Source of the DNA: Geobacteraceae bacterium | Lineage (GTDB): Bacteria; Desulfobacterota; Desulfuromonadia; Geobacterales; Geobacteraceae | Length of the DNA: 42,605 nt | Direction of reading: 5' to 3' | Assembly (NCBI GenBank): GCA_025356035.1 | Contig: JANXYN010000048.1 | Location: forward strand, 1-42,605 | Shown here: piece after piece, positions 2,320-31,881 of the stretch | How positions within the stretch are numbered: the first letter of the stretch is position 1 | Layout: each line of letters starts with the position of its first letter | Notes under the pieces: generated by a model | Databases searched by the model: none | What the model saw: the letters and a program-made list of their open reading frames with translations, nothing else | Told to the model about the DNA's origin: nothing | Translations under genes and position numbers: made by a program

Positions 2320-3345
2320 TTAAACCTCAGCCTCCCGGAGGAAGAGCGCTGCGTCCTCTGGCGAGGTGGGGTTGATGTAAAAGCCGGTCCCCCACTCAAA
2401 GCCGGCGATCTGGGTCAGGCGAGGCACCAGCTCCATATGCCAATGGTAATCAAAGGAAAGGGAGGTCCAGTAATCCGCCTTGCCGAGCCGCGGCAAGGCG
2501 GGGGGCGCCGTATGGATGATAAAATTGTACGGCGGGTCCTTCAGCACCACCTGCAGCCGCATCAGCATATCCTTCATGGCCACCGCCAGCTCTCCCAGCT
2601 GCGCATCGTTCATCAGTGCAAAATCATGGGCGTGCTTTTTCGGGTAAAGCCGCAGCTCGAAAGGAAAGCAGGAGGCATAAGGGGTCATGGTGACAAACTC
2701 GGAAAATTCTTTCACCACCCGGACCGCATTCTGCAGCTCAAACGCGATCAGGTCGCAATAGATACAGCGTTCCTTGCTGCTGTAATAGTCTCGGCAGATC
2801 TTGAGCTCCGTGGCCGCCACCGGCGGCGTAAGCGGCACGGCGATCAGTTGGCTGTGGGAATGTGATAAGGTGGCACCGGCACGTGTACCGTGATTCTTAA
2901 AGAGGGTCAGATATCGAAACCGCAGATCATTGCGGAGATCAAGGTACCTGGCGCGGTAGGCCTTCAAGACATCGGTCAGTTCGGCGGCGGTAAGATCCGC
3001 CATCCCCCGCGAGTGATCGGGCGTTTCGACAATCACTTCATGGGCGCCGATGCCGTTGCGCACATCGTACATCCCGTACCCTCTGCTGTCGATCTCCCCC
3101 TCGATGCGCAACGCCGGATATTTGTTCGGGATCACCCGCACCGTCCAATTCGGTGCATTGGGGGGGCCGGACGGCCTGATGGCGAAAAGCTCACTGGGCG
3201 TTTTATCCTCATTGCCGTAACAGAAGGGGCAACTTGTCATCTCGGGTGGGGTTGGCTCCACCTGGAAATCCCGTGGCCGCCGGCCGCGTTCGGTGGCAAT
3301 GATAACCCAGTGTAACTTCAAGGGATCCCATCTCAATTCCGACAT
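2320..3345 (-). CDS. galT: Galactose-1-phosphate uridylyltransferase family (HIT superfamily)
   Basis: This 341-residue protein exchanges UMP between UDP-glucose and a hexose-1-phosphate through a uridylyl-His intermediate. Visible motifs are a CPFC zinc pair (Cys39, Cys42), a second CIYC pair (Cys194, Cys197) and the catalytic HSHSQ (162-166, nucleophile His164), followed by HWHMELVPR near residue 301. The ATG start has a GGAGG ribosome site a few bases upstream. The open-reading substrate specificity is not visible: some relatives act as UTP- or ADP-hexose-1-phosphate transferases, so a role with ADP-glucose or glucose-1-phosphate in this glycogen cluster is possible. It sits between the GH57 gene and glgA, all on the minus strand. 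Confidence 0.87.
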   Translation of the reverse strand: MSELRWDPLKLHWVIIATERGRRPRDFQVEPTPPEMTSCPFCYGNEDKTPSELFAIRPSGPPNAPNWTVRVIPNKYPALRIEGEIDSRGYGMYDVRNGIGAHEVIVETPDHSRGMADLTAAELTDVLKAYRARYLDLRNDLRFRYLTLFKNHGTRAGATLSHSHSQLIAVPLTPPVAATELKICRDYYSSKERCIYCDLIAFELQNAVRVVKEFSEFVTMTPYASCFPFELRLYPKKHAHDFALMNDAQLGELAVAMKDMLMRLQVVLKDPPYNFIIHTAPPALPRLGKADYWTSLSFDYHWHMELVPRLTQIAGFEWGTGFYINPTSPEDAALFLREAEV

Positions 3346-23066: not shown

Positions 23067-23336
23067 ATGAAGAAGTTGATTGTAGCTGCTGCAATGGTTG
23101 CCTTCGCTGCCTCGACTGCGCTGGCCGCCGATACCGTCGTGATGAAGGCCAAGAACGGCAATGTCACCTTCAACCACAAGGAACACAGTGCTGCCGGCGA
23201 CTGCAAAGCGTGCCACGGTGAGGGGACCCCTGGCAAACTGACCCTGGGGAAAGACGCAGCCCACAAGCTCTGCAAAGGCTGCCATGAAACCAAGAAGGCC
23301 GGTCCCACCAAGTGCGGCGACTGTCACAAAAAGTAG
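23067..23336 (+). CDS. Periplasmic triheme cytochrome c7, PpcA family
   Basis: This 89-residue precursor has a clear signal peptide (cleavage near Ala20/Ala21) and a mature part of about 69 residues. Three CXXCH sites (Cys46-His50, Cys69-His73, Cys83-His87) and the distal-ligand pair in FNHKEH (His37, His40) match the Ppc cytochromes of Geobacter, which carry electrons across the periplasm between inner-membrane quinol oxidases and outer-membrane conduits. Its C-terminal CKGCHE...GPTKCGDCHKK is nearly identical to that of the paralogue at 29165-29437, while the middle differs. It has a near-consensus promoter, an AAGGGGG ribosome site and its own terminator, so it is a single, well expressed gene. 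Which Ppc letter it matches is not clear. Confidence 0.93.
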   Translation: MKKLIVAAAMVAFAASTALAADTVVMKAKNGNVTFNHKEHSAAGDCKACHGEGTPGKLTLGKDAAHKLCKGCHETKKAGPTKCGDCHKK

Positions 23337-26083: not shown

Positions 26084-26551
26084 ATGGCAAATACCTTTGA
26101 TTTTACCCGCTTGCGCCGGCTCATCATCATCTACAGGGTGGTGCAGATATTCTTACTGGTACTGCTGGCGGTGATGGCGGTCAGTTTTCAGACCGTCTTT
26201 CGGGCCAAAGGGATGCCGCAGATTTTTTTCAACAGTATCCTGACCACCCTGGTCATTCAGTTGGTCCTCTTCTATTTCCTCAATAAATTTGCGGCACGGG
26301 AAGCGGAGCAGGAAATTGCCGCCTGCGCCCGGGATATTGCCATTGAGCAGCTCCAGGCACTGCGAAAAAAGCGGCTGTTCGGCGACTATCTTAAGGCCGC
26401 GGTCTTTATCTTCTTCGTCACCTTCAGCGTCCTGGCACCGGGGGCAACCTTTATCCAGAGCACCATTTTCTTCGTCTTTGTCCTGACGATCCTCACCTAT
26501 TTCCAGTGCTTCAACTTTGCGGCCCGCAAGAGGATGCAGGCGCTGCGCTGA
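26084..26551 (+). CDS. Small four-helix membrane protein of unknown function
   Basis: I do not recognise this 155-residue protein. Four hydrophobic segments are seen at about 13-33, 44-67, 103-123 and 128-143. Between the second and third lies a charged cytosolic-looking stretch with a probable helix (AAREAEQEIAACARDIAIEQ). It has no signal peptide beyond the first helix and no catalytic motif. AGGAG sits six bases before the ATG. Its last 41 bases overlap, tail to tail, the end of the DinG-like gene on the other strand. It diverges from znuA and shares its control region. Confidence 0.75.
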   Translation: MANTFDFTRLRRLIIIYRVVQIFLLVLLAVMAVSFQTVFRAKGMPQIFFNSILTTLVIQLVLFYFLNKFAAREAEQEIAACARDIAIEQLQALRKKRLFGDYLKAAVFIFFVTFSVLAPGATFIQSTIFFVFVLTILTYFQCFNFAARKRMQALR

Positions 26552-29048
26552 AAAAATCGGCCAGCTCCTGGAACACGGCGGCACCGTCGCCTCGGGCGAC
26601 CTTGAGCGGCGGGAGCGAACCGAGGAAAAACCGGCCATAGTTTTTGGAGAGGACCCGGCTGTCAAAGATCAGCACGGCACCCCGGTCATCCCTGCTCCGA
26701 ATCAACCGGCCGAAGCCCTGTTTGAATTTGATGACCGCCTGGGGCACGGTATATTCCATGAACGGGTCGCCGCCCAGCCTGGTCAGATGTTCCGCCCGGG
26801 CTTCCAGGATCGGTTCGGTCGGAACCCGAAACGGCAGACGAGTGATCACCACCAGCTCCAGTGCCTTTCCTTTCACATCAACGCCCTCCCAGAATGAATC
26901 GGTCCCAAACAGTACCGCGTTCCGTTCCTTCCTGAAGCGGCTCAGGAGCAGATGCCGGTTCAGCTCACCCTGACGCATCGGGGTGAGCCCCAACCCCTGC
27001 AACCGCTTGTTAAGTCGCTCATAGAGCCGGCTAAGCAGCTCAAATGAGGTGAACAGTACAAAAGCCCGCCCGTTGGAAATGGTGAGAGCCTGCAGCAGAC
27101 CCTCTGCCAGGGCAGCTTCAAAGCCACGTTCGGTCGGTTCCGGCATATCGGCGGGAATGCCGACAAAAGCCTGCTGCGCATAGTCAAAGGGGGAAGCCAG
27201 CAACAGCTCCGTCACCCGCTGCCGCTGGAGGAGGCTGATGCCGGTCCGCCGCTCCAGATAGTCAAATTTGGCGCCGACCGCCAGGGTGGCGGAGGTGACG
27301 ATGACCGTCTTGAATTTGTCCAGTATAGCCGATTTTATCGATTCCGCCACCTCGAGAGGGGACGAACAGAGTCGCACCGCCATCCCCTTGGAGCCGCTTT
27401 TTACTTCGAACCAGCGGCAGACCCCCTCGTCACGTGCGACGAAGAATTGCAGCTGGCCGGCCGCCGTCTCCAACCGACCCTTGATCCCTTTCAGGTCGAC
27501 AAGATTACCGGTGAGCCGGTCGAGAACCCTAGGTGGCAGCCGCTCACACCCCTTGAAAAATGCGTGGAGGGCCGCCACATACTCAAGCAGCTCCCGGCTG
27601 AGCTCGCGAACCCGTTCTTCAACCTCCTGCCAGAAAGGGCTGGCATAGACGACTGCGGTCAGGCGCACCTTTTGCTCGGTGTCCCGGCCCCCTCCCCCCT
27701 TCAGATAGCTGTGGAGCGCGAGCCCGATAAAGTCCATGGCCCGGGAAATGGCATCGGTCAGGGCGTTTCGTCGTGGGATCAGGCGCGTTTCCAGAATGCC
27801 CGCGATCTCCATATAGAGGTCATCGAGGCTTTCCGGCGTCTCCCGGGAAAGCTGGGCAGAAAGCCGGGGGAGCAATCCCAGCTGTGCTCTACGCGGGTGC
27901 TGCAGCCGCCCCAGGATATGCAACAGCCCCTGCCGGGAGGTCTGGGCAGAAAAAAAGTTGGTTGCCACATCCTCCAGATGGTGCCCTTCGTCAAAGATGA
28001 GTCTGGTAAAAGGGGGGAGCACGGCTGATGCACTGTAACCGGTCTGCTGGCGTAGCGCCACGTCCGCCATGAGCAGGGCATGGTTCACCACCAGCAGATC
28101 GGCGCTGGATGCTTCGCGCCTCGCCTTATAGAAAAAGCAGCGGACATAAAACGGGCATTTCACCCTGCCGCACTGGTCCGCTTCGCAACTCACCTCATCC
28201 CAGGTTTCGTCCCGGGGGATAAAACTCAGATCGTTGCGACACCCCTCACCACTCTTTTGGCTCCACTCCACGAGGGCGGCCATTTCCAGTGCCGCTTCAT
28301 CCTTAAACAGGGAAGGTTCGCTCTTAGCCGCTTCCAGCTTGCGCAGACAGAGGTAGTTATGGCGCCCCTTCACCAGCACCGCCCGGAATTCGGTGCCGCC
28401 GTTTTGCTGGAGGAACGGAATGTCCTTTTTGATCAGCTGCTCCTGCAGATTGATGGTGTTGGTGGAGATGACCACCCGTTCCTTGTTGCGAACCGCCCAG
28501 AGCACTGCGGGAAGCAGGTAAGCCAGAGACTTGCCGGTGCCGGTGCCGGCTTCGATGACCGCCACCTGTTCTTCATTGAAGGCCTCCGCCACGGCAAATG
28601 CCATCCGGAGCTGCTCGTCACGGTGCTCGTACCCCTTGAGATTGAGGGAGAGACGGCCGCCGCTGACGAAAAAACGCTCGATCTCGGGGAAGGCCAGGCG
28701 TTCCAGTTCCTGCCGGACAAAGGGGCTCACTGCCTGGTAGCAGCGCTCCACACCGTTGTCGATAAGATAAAAGCCGACCCCCTGATTACCGAGGATGGAG
28801 GCTATTTCCAAATCCGCTTGAGAAGGGGTGAGCACACCGGAGGGGTGATTGTGGACAACCACATCGCCAAACGAAGCCGCGATGAGGATGGCAGCCACCG
28901 CATCACGGTTGCCCCGGGCCAGCGGTTCCACTTCCACCACCAGTCTCGCCTCATCGGTACGACCGAGGAAGAACACCTCATTGCCATCAGCCTCGGCAAT
29001 CTCCGCTCGCATCTGCTGAACAGCCTTTGCCGAAAAAACACGGTTCAT
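26511..29048 (-). CDS. JAMM/RadC-like domain fused to a DinG/XPD-type helicase
   Basis: The chosen ATG 29048 gives 845 residues; TTG 29057 would add three. Neither has a clear ribosome site. Numbering from TTG, residues 1-115 form a JAB/MPN domain with the JAMM metal motif (Glu27, VHNHPSG with His69 and His71, Asp82). Residues 145-848 form an XPD/DinG superfamily-2 helicase: Walker A EAGTGTGKS (169-177), an Fe-S cluster set around Cys237, Cys296, Cys301 and Cys307 (Cys291 also present), the DEGH box (356-359), FGTDSFWEGVD, and QGFGRLIRS as motif VI. DinG unwinds DNA with 5'-3' polarity at R-loops and damaged forks. Other DinG-like proteins carry an exonuclease domain in this N-terminal place. 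Its 3' end overlaps the convergent membrane-protein gene by 41 bases. Confidence 0.85.
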   Translation of the reverse strand: MNRVFSAKAVQQMRAEIAEADGNEVFFLGRTDEARLVVEVEPLARGNRDAVAAILIAASFGDVVVHNHPSGVLTPSQADLEIASILGNQGVGFYLIDNGVERCYQAVSPFVRQELERLAFPEIERFFVSGGRLSLNLKGYEHRDEQLRMAFAVAEAFNEEQVAVIEAGTGTGKSLAYLLPAVLWAVRNKERVVISTNTINLQEQLIKKDIPFLQQNGGTEFRAVLVKGRHNYLCLRKLEAAKSEPSLFKDEAALEMAALVEWSQKSGEGCRNDLSFIPRDETWDEVSCEADQCGRVKCPFYVRCFFYKARREASSADLLVVNHALLMADVALRQQTGYSASAVLPPFTRLIFDEGHHLEDVATNFFSAQTSRQGLLHILGRLQHPRRAQLGLLPRLSAQLSRETPESLDDLYMEIAGILETRLIPRRNALTDAISRAMDFIGLALHSYLKGGGGRDTEQKVRLTAVVYASPFWQEVEERVRELSRELLEYVAALHAFFKGCERLPPRVLDRLTGNLVDLKGIKGRLETAAGQLQFFVARDEGVCRWFEVKSGSKGMAVRLCSSPLEVAESIKSAILDKFKTVIVTSATLAVGAKFDYLERRTGISLLQRQRVTELLLASPFDYAQQAFVGIPADMPEPTERGFEAALAEGLLQALTISNGRAFVLFTSFELLSRLYERLNKRLQGLGLTPMRQGELNRHLLLSRFRKERNAVLFGTDSFWEGVDVKGKALELVVITRLPFRVPTEPILEARAEHLTRLGGDPFMEYTVPQAVIKFKQGFGRLIRSRDDRGAVLIFDSRVLSKNYGRFFLGSLPPLKVARGDGAAVFQELADFFSAAPASSCGPQS

Positions 29049-29100
29049 TTGCTTCAAGTTACTATCTTTGCCAGGTTACTGCAATCCTTTTATCGCCCGG

Positions 29101-29164: not shown

Positions 29165-29437
29165 TTACTTCTTGTGGCACTCGCTACACTTGGTCGGCCC
29201 CGCTTTTTTCTCCTCGTGGCACCCCTTGCAGGTCTTGTGAGCCCACTCTTTGCCGAACCCTTCGATCTTTCCCGGACCTTTCTCGTGACAGAGCTTGCAC
29301 TCCTTGAGGGACTCCTGGTGCTTCTTGTGATTAAAGGTTACTTTCCCCATGGTGGCGGGAAACTCGATGACCTCGGCGGCAACGGCGGTGCCGGCAAAGG
29401 CGACGACAACAGACAGGGCAACAATGATCTTTTTCAT
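29165..29437 (-). CDS. Periplasmic triheme cytochrome c7, PpcA family
   Basis: This 90-residue precursor has a signal peptide ending near Ala20/Ala21. The haem sites are Cys47-His51, Cys70-His74 and Cys84-His88, with distal-ligand His37 and His40. The core EKGPGKIEGFGKEWAHKTCKG closely follows G. sulfurreducens PpcA/PpcB, so this is nearer to the principal Ppc proteins than the copy at 23067. It would shuttle electrons through the periplasm during metal or electrode respiration. AAAGGAG lies just before the ATG, preceded by a perfect 9-3-9 palindrome. The upstream gene on the same strand encodes a small secreted protein and may share its transcript; a terminator follows. Confidence 0.94.
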   Translation of the reverse strand: MKKIIVALSVVVAFAGTAVAAEVIEFPATMGKVTFNHKKHQESLKECKLCHEKGPGKIEGFGKEWAHKTCKGCHEEKKAGPTKCSECHKK

Positions 29438-29466
29438 CTCACTACTCCTTTCTTTGGTGGCATTCT

Positions 29467-29487
29467 CTATTTAACTGTGTTAAATAG
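29467..29487. promoter_or_regulatory. Perfect 21-base palindrome upstream of the triheme cytochrome
   Basis: CTATTTAAC-TGT-GTTAAATAG has 9-base arms and a 3-base spacer. It lies 30 bases before the cytochrome start codon, between two minus-strand genes. No T-run follows it, so an operator is more likely than a terminator. The cognate regulator is unknown. Confidence 0.55.
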
Positions 29488-29512
29488 TCGTAATTGGCAG
29501 CGGCTTGCGACT

Positions 29513-29833
29513 TCAGCAGCCGGCCGTCTTCCTGAAGAGCTTGCTGATATGCTCGCCATTCACCGTTTCGTACTTGCAGCGAATCTCGTCTCCCTCCACG
29601 ATCCGGTGGTCTTTGAATTTTTCAAGGGTCAGGGAGTCGCTCACCGTTACGGTTACAAGCTGTTCCGTGGCGGTGTCCTTCAGGGTAGCTGTGGCACTGG
29701 CTGCGTCCTGGCCGGCGACCTCGATCTTGGTGATGACACCGAGCAACTTCCCACCATCTTCCGCCTGGGCTACGTAGGCGCCCAACAGTACCGCAAAGGC
29801 AACCAGGACAATGCTCGATACGATCCGTTTCAT
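29513..29833 (-). CDS. Small secreted protein of unknown function
   Basis: This 106-residue precursor has a signal peptide (positive MKR, hydrophobic core, cleavage near AQA/EDGG at 24-25). The mature 82 residues alternate short hydrophobic and charged stretches suggestive of a small beta-barrel or OB-like fold (GVITKIEVAG, LVTVTVSDSL, IRCKYETVNG). It has two Cys, at 86 and at the very C-terminus (106). There is no haem motif. AGGAG lies six bases before the ATG. It lies upstream of the triheme cytochrome gene on the same strand and diverges from the membrane-anchored regulator at 30004, so it is a likely target of that regulator. I do not recognise a family. Confidence 0.75.
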   Translation of the reverse strand: MKRIVSSIVLVAFAVLLGAYVAQAEDGGKLLGVITKIEVAGQDAASATATLKDTATEQLVTVTVSDSLTLEKFKDHRIVEGDEIRCKYETVNGEHISKLFRKTAGC

Positions 29834-29927
29834 GATGTTCTCCTTTCGTGCTAAGATAGTGACGCTGTGTTCTTACTTTCCTTATAGCCCGATTTTGCCG
29901 GTGCCGCTATCGACATCTGGAGGGATT

Positions 29928-29945
29928 CGACCCGATGTCGGGTCG
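29928..29945. promoter_or_regulatory. Perfect palindrome in the divergent control region
   Basis: CGACCCGA-TG-TCGGGTCG (8-2-8) lies between the small secreted protein gene and the XRE regulator gene. A 10-base palindrome ACAAATTTGT follows at 29969-29978. Either may be the operator of the adjacent regulator. Confidence 0.5.
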
Positions 29946-30003
29946 TCTGAGGGAATGGGTAAACAGGAACAAATTTGTCGAATTTACCGGGGAGCCTGCT
30001 AGA

Positions 30004-30936
30004 ATGGTTACTATGGACAATCAAGGGATTGAAATGGAGCGAGGCCAGCCCCCAATCGTCGCCATCGACGGTGCCCGCATCAAAAAGATTCGGGAAGAGA
30101 AGCGGCTGACCCAGCTTTACGTGGCAAGTGTGGTCGGGGTTACCACCGACACCATTTCCCGCTGGGAGAATAATCGCTATCCCACCATCCGTCGTGACAA
30201 CGCGGAAAAACTTGCCGGGGCCCTTGAGGTGGAGCTGACGGAGATCCTCCTGGCTGATAAGACCGACACGGCGTTGGCAGAATTGCCGCAGTTGCCGGCG
30301 AACATAGGCCAGCGGCGCCGCTATTTTCTTCTGACGGTTGGCGTTGCAATTCTGGCGGTAGCCCTGCTTCTCTTTTTCCGCCAGACCATCACCGCCCCCA
30401 CTGCCACCAGGCGGCTTCCCCATTTTGCAGCGCCAACCACTACCATACCAGTGCAGCTCAAGGTCAGCCGGAAAGGGGCCGGCGACCTCGGATTCATCGT
30501 CCGGGAGCGCCTTCCCGCCGGCTGGCGGCTGATCAGCTCGGTACCGGAAGCGACGGCCGGCCAGCCGGCCGCTGAAGAGGCGAAGTGGCTTATCGCCAGC
30601 GGCAACGGCCCGGTTACTATTAATTACACCGTGCAACTCCCCCCGGCAATCCCCCTGCAATCAGTGGCCACCTTTACCGGAAACATTGTCGTCTCTACCG
30701 GTGAGATCACCCGTAGCGCCCCCATCGGCGGCGACACCGGCATTACTGTTGCCGGTTACCACTGGGCTGATAGCAATGGTGACGGCAGGATCGACGACAG
30801 CGAGGTCATGCCCGCCTACTATCTGCTGGAGGAAATGAAGGGATCCGGTCTCGACTGGAAGGAGATTGAAACGATCTGGAGTAGCAAAGGGTACCGGTGG
30901 GACCCGGCAAGGAAGGGATTTACGGTGATCAAGTGA
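30004..30936 (+). CDS. Membrane-anchored XRE-family regulator with EF-hand-like loop
   Basis: I choose ATG 30004 (310 residues; GGGGAG nine bases upstream); ATG 30013 is also possible and upstream in-frame codons overlap the palindrome. Residues about 23-80 are a helix-turn-helix of the XRE/Cro type (IREEKRLTQLYVASVVGVTTDTISRWE region). After a linker, QRRR precedes a single membrane helix (about 107-125). The remaining 185 residues should face the periplasm; they are rich in beta strands and contain, at 256-267, DSNGDGRIDDSE, a textbook EF-hand/dockerin calcium loop (DxNxDGxIDxxE). The protein could therefore read an outside signal such as calcium and act on DNA directly, in the manner of ToxR/CadC. 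It diverges from the secreted protein and triheme cytochrome genes. Confidence 0.8.
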   Translation: MVTMDNQGIEMERGQPPIVAIDGARIKKIREEKRLTQLYVASVVGVTTDTISRWENNRYPTIRRDNAEKLAGALEVELTEILLADKTDTALAELPQLPANIGQRRRYFLLTVGVAILAVALLLFFRQTITAPTATRRLPHFAAPTTTIPVQLKVSRKGAGDLGFIVRERLPAGWRLISSVPEATAGQPAAEEAKWLIASGNGPVTINYTVQLPPAIPLQSVATFTGNIVVSTGEITRSAPIGGDTGITVAGYHWADSNGDGRIDDSEVMPAYYLLEEMKGSGLDWKEIETIWSSKGYRWDPARKGFTVIK

Positions 30937-30954: not shown

Positions 30955-31881
30955 TCATGGGTTAGTTCGAAATGCCGCAGCCAGCGGCAACAGCTGGACC
31001 CCCTGTTCGCCGCGACCCTGCAATAAAGCGAGCAGCAGTTTGACCCCCAGCGGCTCGTTGCCATTGCCATGGACCAGGATAAAACTCCCTCCCACCGGCT
31101 TTTCCCCCTTGGCCAGCCAGGCGTCGCTGCCGATCGGGATCAGCGACAGGGCTCGCAGCTTCTCCATCAAGCCTTTGTCACTCACCAGCCCCGGAAAGCG
31201 AAAAAACACCGACGGAACCACCCCCCTTGCCAATAGCGCCTGCTCTGTAGTCAGTACCTCCCGTTCCAGATCGCTACCTGGGGTGAGGAGAAAATTCCGC
31301 TCTAGCGGCGCCTGTGGCTGATACGGATGGGTGGCTGAATGGTTGACCCAGGTAACGCTGAGCCGACCGCCAGCCACTTCGGCAAGAAGCCAGGTCATTG
31401 CCTCCTCATGGCTTTCCATCCAGCGCCTAGTCACGGCGATGGCAACTGGCACCGGACCAGCCTTGGCCTGGGGAAGCCGTGTCAGCGCCTCGAACAGCCC
31501 CCGTTCGAAACTTCTGCTGGATGGGCAAAGATCGACGGTCACGAAGATGCCGTCCGTCCCATGGTCGGCACGGGTTGCACCGCCGTTCTGCAATCGATAG
31601 GGGGGGGCGGTGTAATGAAACAGGGCTCGATAATAGGGGGTCTGCTGCGTTTGCGCAGTGTCCGGCGCGAGCCAGTGCAGGGAGGTCGGCTGCGCGACCG
31701 AAGTGGCGAAGGTGCGGGGGTCAACCAGGAGCACCTGGGCAACGGCGTCCAGTTCATACTGACGGATGGCAACTTTAGGAGTACCTGCGCCATCTGCGCA
31801 GGGGAGAAAAATAGTGCGGTAGTTGGTTAGCTGGGCAGCAGCAGCGGATGAGCAGAGCTGCAGGCCGAGCAGGATGAGCAA
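30955..31881 (-). CDS. Polysaccharide deacetylase-like secreted protein
   Basis: The reading frame is clear but the start is not. No ATG or GTG lies at the right place; TTG 31881 gives 308 residues, and a CTG at 31914 would give a better signal peptide (MTGRRNLARHF...). A hydrophobic export segment ends near AAAA/QL. NodB-type motifs can be traced: VTVDLCPSS (motif 1, second Asp missing), NHSATHP (motif 2, His pair), FRFPGL (motif 3) and ILVHGNG (motif 5). With motif 1 altered, metal-dependent deacetylase activity is uncertain. It follows DUF116 in the def-fmt operon and converges on the membrane regulator gene, 18 bases apart. A run of eight G (31600-31607, C on the coding strand) lies within it. 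Confidence 0.68.
   Translation of the reverse strand: MLILLGLQLCSSAAAAQLTNYRTIFLPCADGAGTPKVAIRQYELDAVAQVLLVDPRTFATSVAQPTSLHWLAPDTAQTQQTPYYRALFHYTAPPYRLQNGGATRADHGTDGIFVTVDLCPSSRSFERGLFEALTRLPQAKAGPVPVAIAVTRRWMESHEEAMTWLLAEVAGGRLSVTWVNHSATHPYQPQAPLERNFLLTPGSDLEREVLTTEQALLARGVVPSVFFRFPGLVSDKGLMEKLRALSLIPIGSDAWLAKGEKPVGGSFILVHGNGNEPLGVKLLLALLQGRGEQGVQLLPLAAAFRTNP

Follow-up and report, generated by a model that had tools for sequence, protein, structure and literature searches.

Background

In Geobacter and its relatives, electrons bound for minerals and electrodes outside the cell are carried by periplasmic cytochromes of the PpcA type. No dedicated membrane regulator was named for these cytochromes in the literature that we searched, and the search returned no paper on a membrane-bound XRE protein that regulates periplasmic cytochromes, nor any on an EF-hand/HTH membrane protein. 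The closest described regulators are ToxR, CadC and TcpP, in which a cytoplasmic DNA-binding domain is joined through one membrane helix to a periplasmic sensing domain, and which act on a local target gene; the DNA-binding domain of ToxR and CadC is a winged helix. At the PRM promoter, the lambda cI protein uses an XRE-type HTH on two boxes spaced by about 22 bp, of which the proximal lies near −40. RodZ has a layout of a cytoplasmic HTH, one membrane helix and a periplasmic beta domain, and in dockerin and EF-hand modules a calcium-loop consensus stands beside a beta-sandwich. Transmembrane transcription regulators have been defined as proteins with a predicted DNA-binding domain and at least one predicted transmembrane region that regulate transcription from the membrane (PMC10269533); the main text of that paper makes no mention of XRE, EF-hands or Geobacter.

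Here we analyze a stretch of 42,605 nt, referred to as the window, from a Geobacteraceae bacterium (GCA_025356035.1, contig JANXYN010000048.1, positions 1–42,605, forward strand). It encodes a protein, hereafter the regulator, with the same general layout as ToxR, CadC and TcpP but with an XRE domain (HTH_3) instead of the winged helix of ToxR and CadC, and with an Ig-like outer domain that carries an EF-type loop. We consider it quite probable that this protein activates the gene of a periplasmic cytochrome with three or four hemes and, in some lineages, also the genes of one or a few small secreted proteins. The gene pair and its predicted operator are kept across many genera, the operator often being the only such site in a genome, and the locus offers a one-gene, one-operator system for studying membrane control of respiratory electron carriers. 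The features of the locus are collected in Table 1.

Table 1. Features of the regulator–cytochrome locus, in window coordinates
Feature	Position	Strand	Basis or remark
Periplasmic triheme cytochrome c7, dinG-adjacent (ppcB/ppcC-type position), presumed main target	29165..29437	-	NF043011; divergence from regulator
Palindrome CTATTTAACtgtGTTAAATAG, probable relic of the ancestral cytochrome core promoter	29467..29487	.	compare CTATTTTTACCACAGTT in Geomonas
Small secreted protein, 106 aa, no family match	29513..29833	-	insertion between operator and cytochrome in this lineage
-10 hexamer TATAAG, predicted promoter of the 29833-29165 operon	29881..29886	-	25 nt downstream of proximal box; no -35
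Compound predicted operator GACATC-N7-AT..CG-N3-GATGTCGGGT	29912..29943	+	conservation; association with regulator
Membrane-anchored XRE regulator, 310 aa, residues 1-310	30004..30936	+	Pfam HTH_3, AlphaFold model, single-copy orthologues
EF-hand-type loop D256-x-N-x-D-x-x-I-D-x-x-E267	30769..30804	+	ligand conservation in orthologues

Comparisons were made with samples of 48 genomes of the family, 277 genomes of the class Desulfuromonadia and 395 genomes of the phylum Desulfobacterota. After removal of duplicates there were 85 regulator loci, 84 of them on contigs long enough to test for cytochrome linkage. A further 30 loci of the class overlap partially with this first locus set.

Architecture of the regulator

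The XRE-type HTH, single membrane helix and beta-rich outer domain that the initial annotation had read in the 310-residue protein are found in agreement by Pfam, by hydropathy and in an AlphaFold model (built from 69 orthologues; mean pLDDT 89.9). Residues 26–81 match HTH_3 with E = 1.5e-11 and 44.5 bits against a cut-off of 23, and the only Pfam families above their cut-offs anywhere in the protein are HTH_3, HTH_19, HTH_31 and HTH_26, with no match above cut-off in the outer part. Scores for the NCBIfam XRE subfamilies RstR, MqsA, DicA and PezA were far below the cut-offs (best 30.1 compared to 80). There is one hydrophobic helix, with a 19-residue mean hydropathy of 2.7 at residue 107, and 67 of 69 orthologues have a hydrophobic window at residues 80–150. 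In the model, the HTH (18–82) is followed by a disordered or flexible linker (83–101), the membrane helix (102–126), an Ig-like beta-sandwich with strands in 133–249, the EF-type loop (256–267), and a C-terminal module (265–309) made up of a helix at 265–277, a second helix at 285–293 and a terminal hairpin. A structure search with the whole chain returned generic beta-sandwiches, of which the most sensible was the CLIPPER domain of a Gram-negative adhesin (9ifr, E = 7e-6). With its HTH_3 score and the transmembrane helix at 102–126, the regulator is, as far as a sequence definition goes, a transmembrane transcription regulator in the sense of PMC10269533, with an XRE/Ig-like/EF-loop make-up that none of the papers found describes. 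It does not belong to the ToxR/CadC family, as Pfam finds no winged-helix (OmpR-type) match in it.

The HTH is the best-conserved part of the protein, with 29 of 65 columns conserved at ≥95% compared with none in the linker and membrane helix, and its recognition segment TTDTxSRWENNRYP is invariant in the orthologues save for the x position. This conservation bears on the reading of the regulator as a RodZ-like morphogenetic membrane protein whose HTH is inactive in transcription. The two proteins do have a common layout of cytoplasmic HTH, one membrane helix and periplasmic beta domain. RodZ, however, has a cytoskeletal function and an HTH of the HTH_25 family; the regulator has HTH_3 and no HTH_25 match, while two other genes of the genome carry HTH_25 above cut-off. 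Together with the invariant recognition segment and a matching operator that tracks the regulator gene (see below), this makes a RodZ-like role extremely unlikely.

Distribution and linkage to a cytochrome gene

Orthologues of the full protein are present, one per genome, in 36 of the 48 family genomes. The regulator is likewise single-copy in 144 of 277 Desulfuromonadia genomes, which represent 59 of 82 genera, and in 36 of the 395 genomes drawn across Desulfobacterota, a phylum of metal- and sulfur-respiring bacteria; named records that contain it include Geobacter, Geomonas, Geotalea, Desulfuromonas, Desulfuromusa, Malonomonas, Pelovirga and others. Of the 84 testable distinct loci, 78 have a secreted c7/c3-type cytochrome, with three or four hemes by CxxCH count, divergent from the regulator. 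The link to a divergent cytochrome, whose lack in relatives would have told against the initial proposal, is thus conserved. The same arrangement was found in 29 of the 30 further class loci, the remaining one being cut off, as well as in 13 of the 20 loci from other classes, where the cytochromes are longer and of a different kind. The helicase gene beyond the cytochrome is conserved in Geobacteraceae only, which indicates that the pairing of regulator and cytochrome is not a consequence of general synteny.

Some genomes depart from this arrangement. At loci L064, L068, L078, L084 and L090 the regulator is present with neither an adjoining cytochrome nor a local operator site; in Pelovirga and similar records (L064, L078, L084 and L090) it lies beside a polyprenyl synthase gene. 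Conversely, one Geobacteraceae genome (G003) has the dinG helicase and two cytochromes while regulator and operator are both absent. The regulator may have escaped notice because at least this one Geobacteraceae genome with the same cytochrome locus lacks it.

The cytochrome encoded next to the regulator in the window has three CxxCH motifs and matches the cytochrome c7 family NF043011 with 148.8 bits against a cut-off of 120, the family to which PpcA–E of Geobacter sulfurreducens also belong. The PpcA gene itself is adjoined by ResB/ResC genes (GSU0612–0614; PMC7894505, PMC2700814). In this genome, ResB/ResC-like and CcsA-like genes, recognized by eye, neighbor another triheme cytochrome on contig 164 (C164:22604–22870, positions 3105–3374 of L172), which is 81% identical to the window copy and has no operator. 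By synteny the contig 164 copy is likely to be the true PpcA (GSU0612) orthologue, and the window copy is the dinG-adjacent paralogue. The earlier description of the window cytochrome as PpcA-type is accordingly right as to the c7 family and does not extend to orthology with PpcA.

A conserved predicted operator tied to the cytochrome promoter

Two perfect palindromes had been proposed as control sites, and both exist: one at 29467–29487 with two 9-nt arms and a 3-nt spacer, the other at 29928–29945 with two 8-nt arms and a 2-nt spacer. Only the latter is conserved as a candidate control site. Most of it lies within the predicted operator at 29912–29943, and it constitutes one half of this putative compound site, which is conserved phylogenetically. 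Nearly all Geobacteraceae have the sequence ACCCGATGTCGGGT, which is part of this palindrome, in the interval from regulator to cytochrome.

In a search of whole genomes, the exact 14-mer core of the site was present, mostly once, in 33 of the 36 family genomes with the regulator and in none of the 12 without it (p = 6.5e-9 by Fisher's exact test). There were 37 matches in the 48 genomes compared with 0 for a reversed control pattern, and the conservation of this palindrome, like that of the EF-type loop, is far above what chance would give. Across the wider class the consensus is GACATC-N7-ATNNCG-N3-GATGTCGGG, and with at most two mismatches allowed this site was present in 107 of the 144 regulator-bearing genomes, as opposed to 5 of the 133 that lack the regulator (p = 1.6e-37). 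When N7 was replaced by N6, only chance-like matches were obtained class-wide. Both p-values overstate independence since the genomes are related by descent, and the breadth of genera is a better argument for the tie between the predicted operator and the regulator.

The position of the site is set relative to the cytochrome. Its distance to the start of the cytochrome gene (or of the leftmost gene) has a mean of 94.5 and SD of 10.4, compared with an SD of 37.7 for its distance to the regulator. In the tandem-cytochrome locus G004/L016 a second cytochrome is inserted beside the regulator, and the site is placed between this and the inner cytochrome; it is upstream of the inner one, which is the closer to the window's copy, and 464 nt from the regulator match. 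In genome G234 the two genes are on different contigs: the regulator on contig 2, and on contig 5 a tetraheme cytochrome that still carries the site. The predicted operator goes with the cytochrome promoter rather than with the regulator gene, and stays with the cytochrome where the two genes are unlinked. The linkage and the predicted operator together support the initial proposal that the protein is a one-component membrane switch for the supply of periplasmic cytochromes.

Secondary sites precede small signal-peptide proteins, which form one family in three Geotalea-group genomes and are basic and His/Arg-rich in many Desulfuromonadales genomes. Most of the basic secreted proteins at loci L297–L312 have a C-terminal hydrophobic strand whose last residue is Trp or Phe (PRVVLHFPW is one such ending). 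The f10/g42 genomes examined have the operator in front of a basic secreted protein, far from the regulator. Because of these genomes and of the cytochrome-free regulator loci described above, the cytochrome is the commonest target but neither the sole nor a universal one. The abundance of secondary sites could also mean that small secreted proteins are the ancestral target and that the cytochrome is a hitch-hiker. This is very unlikely: at least three dissimilar types of secreted protein are represented at secondary sites, whereas no other arrangement in the class is as common as linkage to a cytochrome, which most of the loci of other classes share.

Promoter geometry and the direction of control

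A −10 hexamer located 25 nt past the proximal box in the direction of the cytochrome forms a peak in 34 of 73 orthologous promoters, compared with a maximum of 11 after shuffling; these counts refer to the 73 promoters and leave out the loci of distant classes, which were read by eye. In 25 of 27 Geobacteraceae promoters the hexamer is preceded by TG, as in an extended −10 element, and a consistent −35 element is absent. The predicted boxes would occupy approximately −38 to −65, with centers near −40 and −62.

This geometry leads us to favor activation, since the boxes precede an extended −10 with no accompanying −35, at a conserved spacing, as with lambda cI at PRM. The likeness to lambda cI includes the XRE-type HTH and a pair of boxes with a spacing of about 22 bp whose proximal member lies near −40, although the boxes of the regulator are predicted; the difference is that lambda cI is soluble and cleaved by RecA, and the regulator is membrane-anchored and has a periplasmic domain. 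In the mechanism that we propose, the cytoplasmic HTH would bind the compound site of GACATC/GATGTC boxes and recruit RNA polymerase to the extended −10 promoter as lambda cI does at PRM, while the periplasmic Ig-like/EF-loop domain would set the activity of the protein by reading an envelope condition or by binding a periplasmic partner.

The opposite sign of control is unlikely. As a repressor, the membrane protein would occupy the operator and keep the cytochrome gene repressed until released by an envelope signal, a scheme in keeping with the location of the site between two divergent genes and with the repressor role of many XRE proteins whose divergent promoters are autoregulated. A usual repressor would cover the −35/−10 region or the start site, however, and not boxes placed upstream of an extended −10 at a conserved spacing; the operator position is typical of activators, though some repressors also bind upstream. 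In addition, one genome that lacks both the regulator and the operator still has the cytochromes.

The second palindrome, at 29467–29487, was considered as a second operator and rejected: it has no counterpart in relatives and aligns with the ancestral core promoter. The sequence CTATTTAACACAGTT before the window cytochrome resembles the relatives' core promoter CTATTTTTACCACAGTT, which suggests that an insertion parted the operator from the old core promoter and that the palindrome is a relic of the latter. The inserted gene would be that of the small secreted protein. The window's genome is alone among those examined in having it at this locus, and homologues of the protein are present in 38 of 48 family genomes, at other places in the 37 besides the window's own, which itself has a second copy at C159. 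Judging by these comparisons the secreted gene beside the palindrome is a recent, lineage-specific insertion absent from the orthologous loci, and a place for it in the ancestral system is not supported. The secreted gene and the cytochrome now probably form one operon.

The EF-type loop and the possible signal

The loop at residues 256–267 reads D256-S-N-G-D-G-R-I-D-D-S-E267, exactly the perfect DxNxDGxIDxxE loop that had been reported, and agrees with the EF-hand ligand pattern D1, D/N3, D/N5, D/E/S9, E12. Of 83 distinct orthologues, all have acceptable ligands at positions 1, 3, 5 and 12 and 81 at position 9, so the variation of the Asp residues that would have counted against the initial proposal does not occur; position 6, by comparison, is glycine in just 44. 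An EF-like core is kept in 20 of 20 orthologues from other classes. This conservation over near and distant orthologues indicates that the loop sequence is under strong selection. The surroundings of the loop agree with an EF-hand only in part: Pfam EF-hand_5 scores 12.1 bits, under the cut-off of 25.9, and in the AlphaFold model the exiting helix 265–277 is present but the loop is preceded by a strand and not by a helix. A structure search for an EF-hand or dockerin fold gave nothing significant (best EF-hand protein match E = 3.7), and the regulator, with one loop and not two in tandem, is not a dockerin.

The initial annotation had suggested that the regulator senses calcium, and a calcium switch, in which the loop would measure periplasmic calcium and the protein would set the cytochrome level accordingly, could account for nearly invariant ligands that persist even in the distant orthologues. 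We find this or any other specific signal unsupported, and calcium sensing in particular quite improbable. Geobacteraceae from fresh water and Desulfuromonas/Desulfuromusa-type members from the sea have the loop in common despite what should be very different external calcium, position 6 is free to vary, a single EF loop makes no obvious cooperative switch, and the fold matches to EF-hand proteins are not significant. Since freshwater and marine members share the loop, a structural calcium site is more likely than a sensor, and the loop most likely binds calcium to hold the C-terminal module in place.

The likeliest input to the regulator would be a periplasmic partner or the state of the envelope. 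One may speculate further, with the odds against it, that the periplasmic domain reads the electron-carrier pool, whether through the occupancy of the cytochromes, through their redox state or through a secreted partner associated with them, and that the protein is a phylum-wide feedback sensor with lambda cI-like activation. If so, periplasmic cytochrome supply would be matched to extracellular or sulfur respiration from the membrane.

Other genes near the locus

Convergent with the regulator gene is a gene for a protein of about 300 aa with no Pfam match (30955–31860, minus strand). In other classes (L333, L335–L341, L343 and L344) a secreted protein is encoded 3′ of the regulator; it contains a stretch that by eye resembles the regulator's Ig-like domain, and it is a possible partner or co-component. 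On the other side of the locus, the gene at 26511–29057 (minus strand) encodes an 848-aa protein that combines a RadC-like JAB domain (residues 13–89) with a DinG-type helicase (PF13307) and is kept beside the locus in Geobacteraceae at 70–77% identity. Beyond the helicase gene lies a further triheme cytochrome (23070–23333, plus strand), 59% identical to that at 29165–29437, an arrangement that recurs in several relatives.
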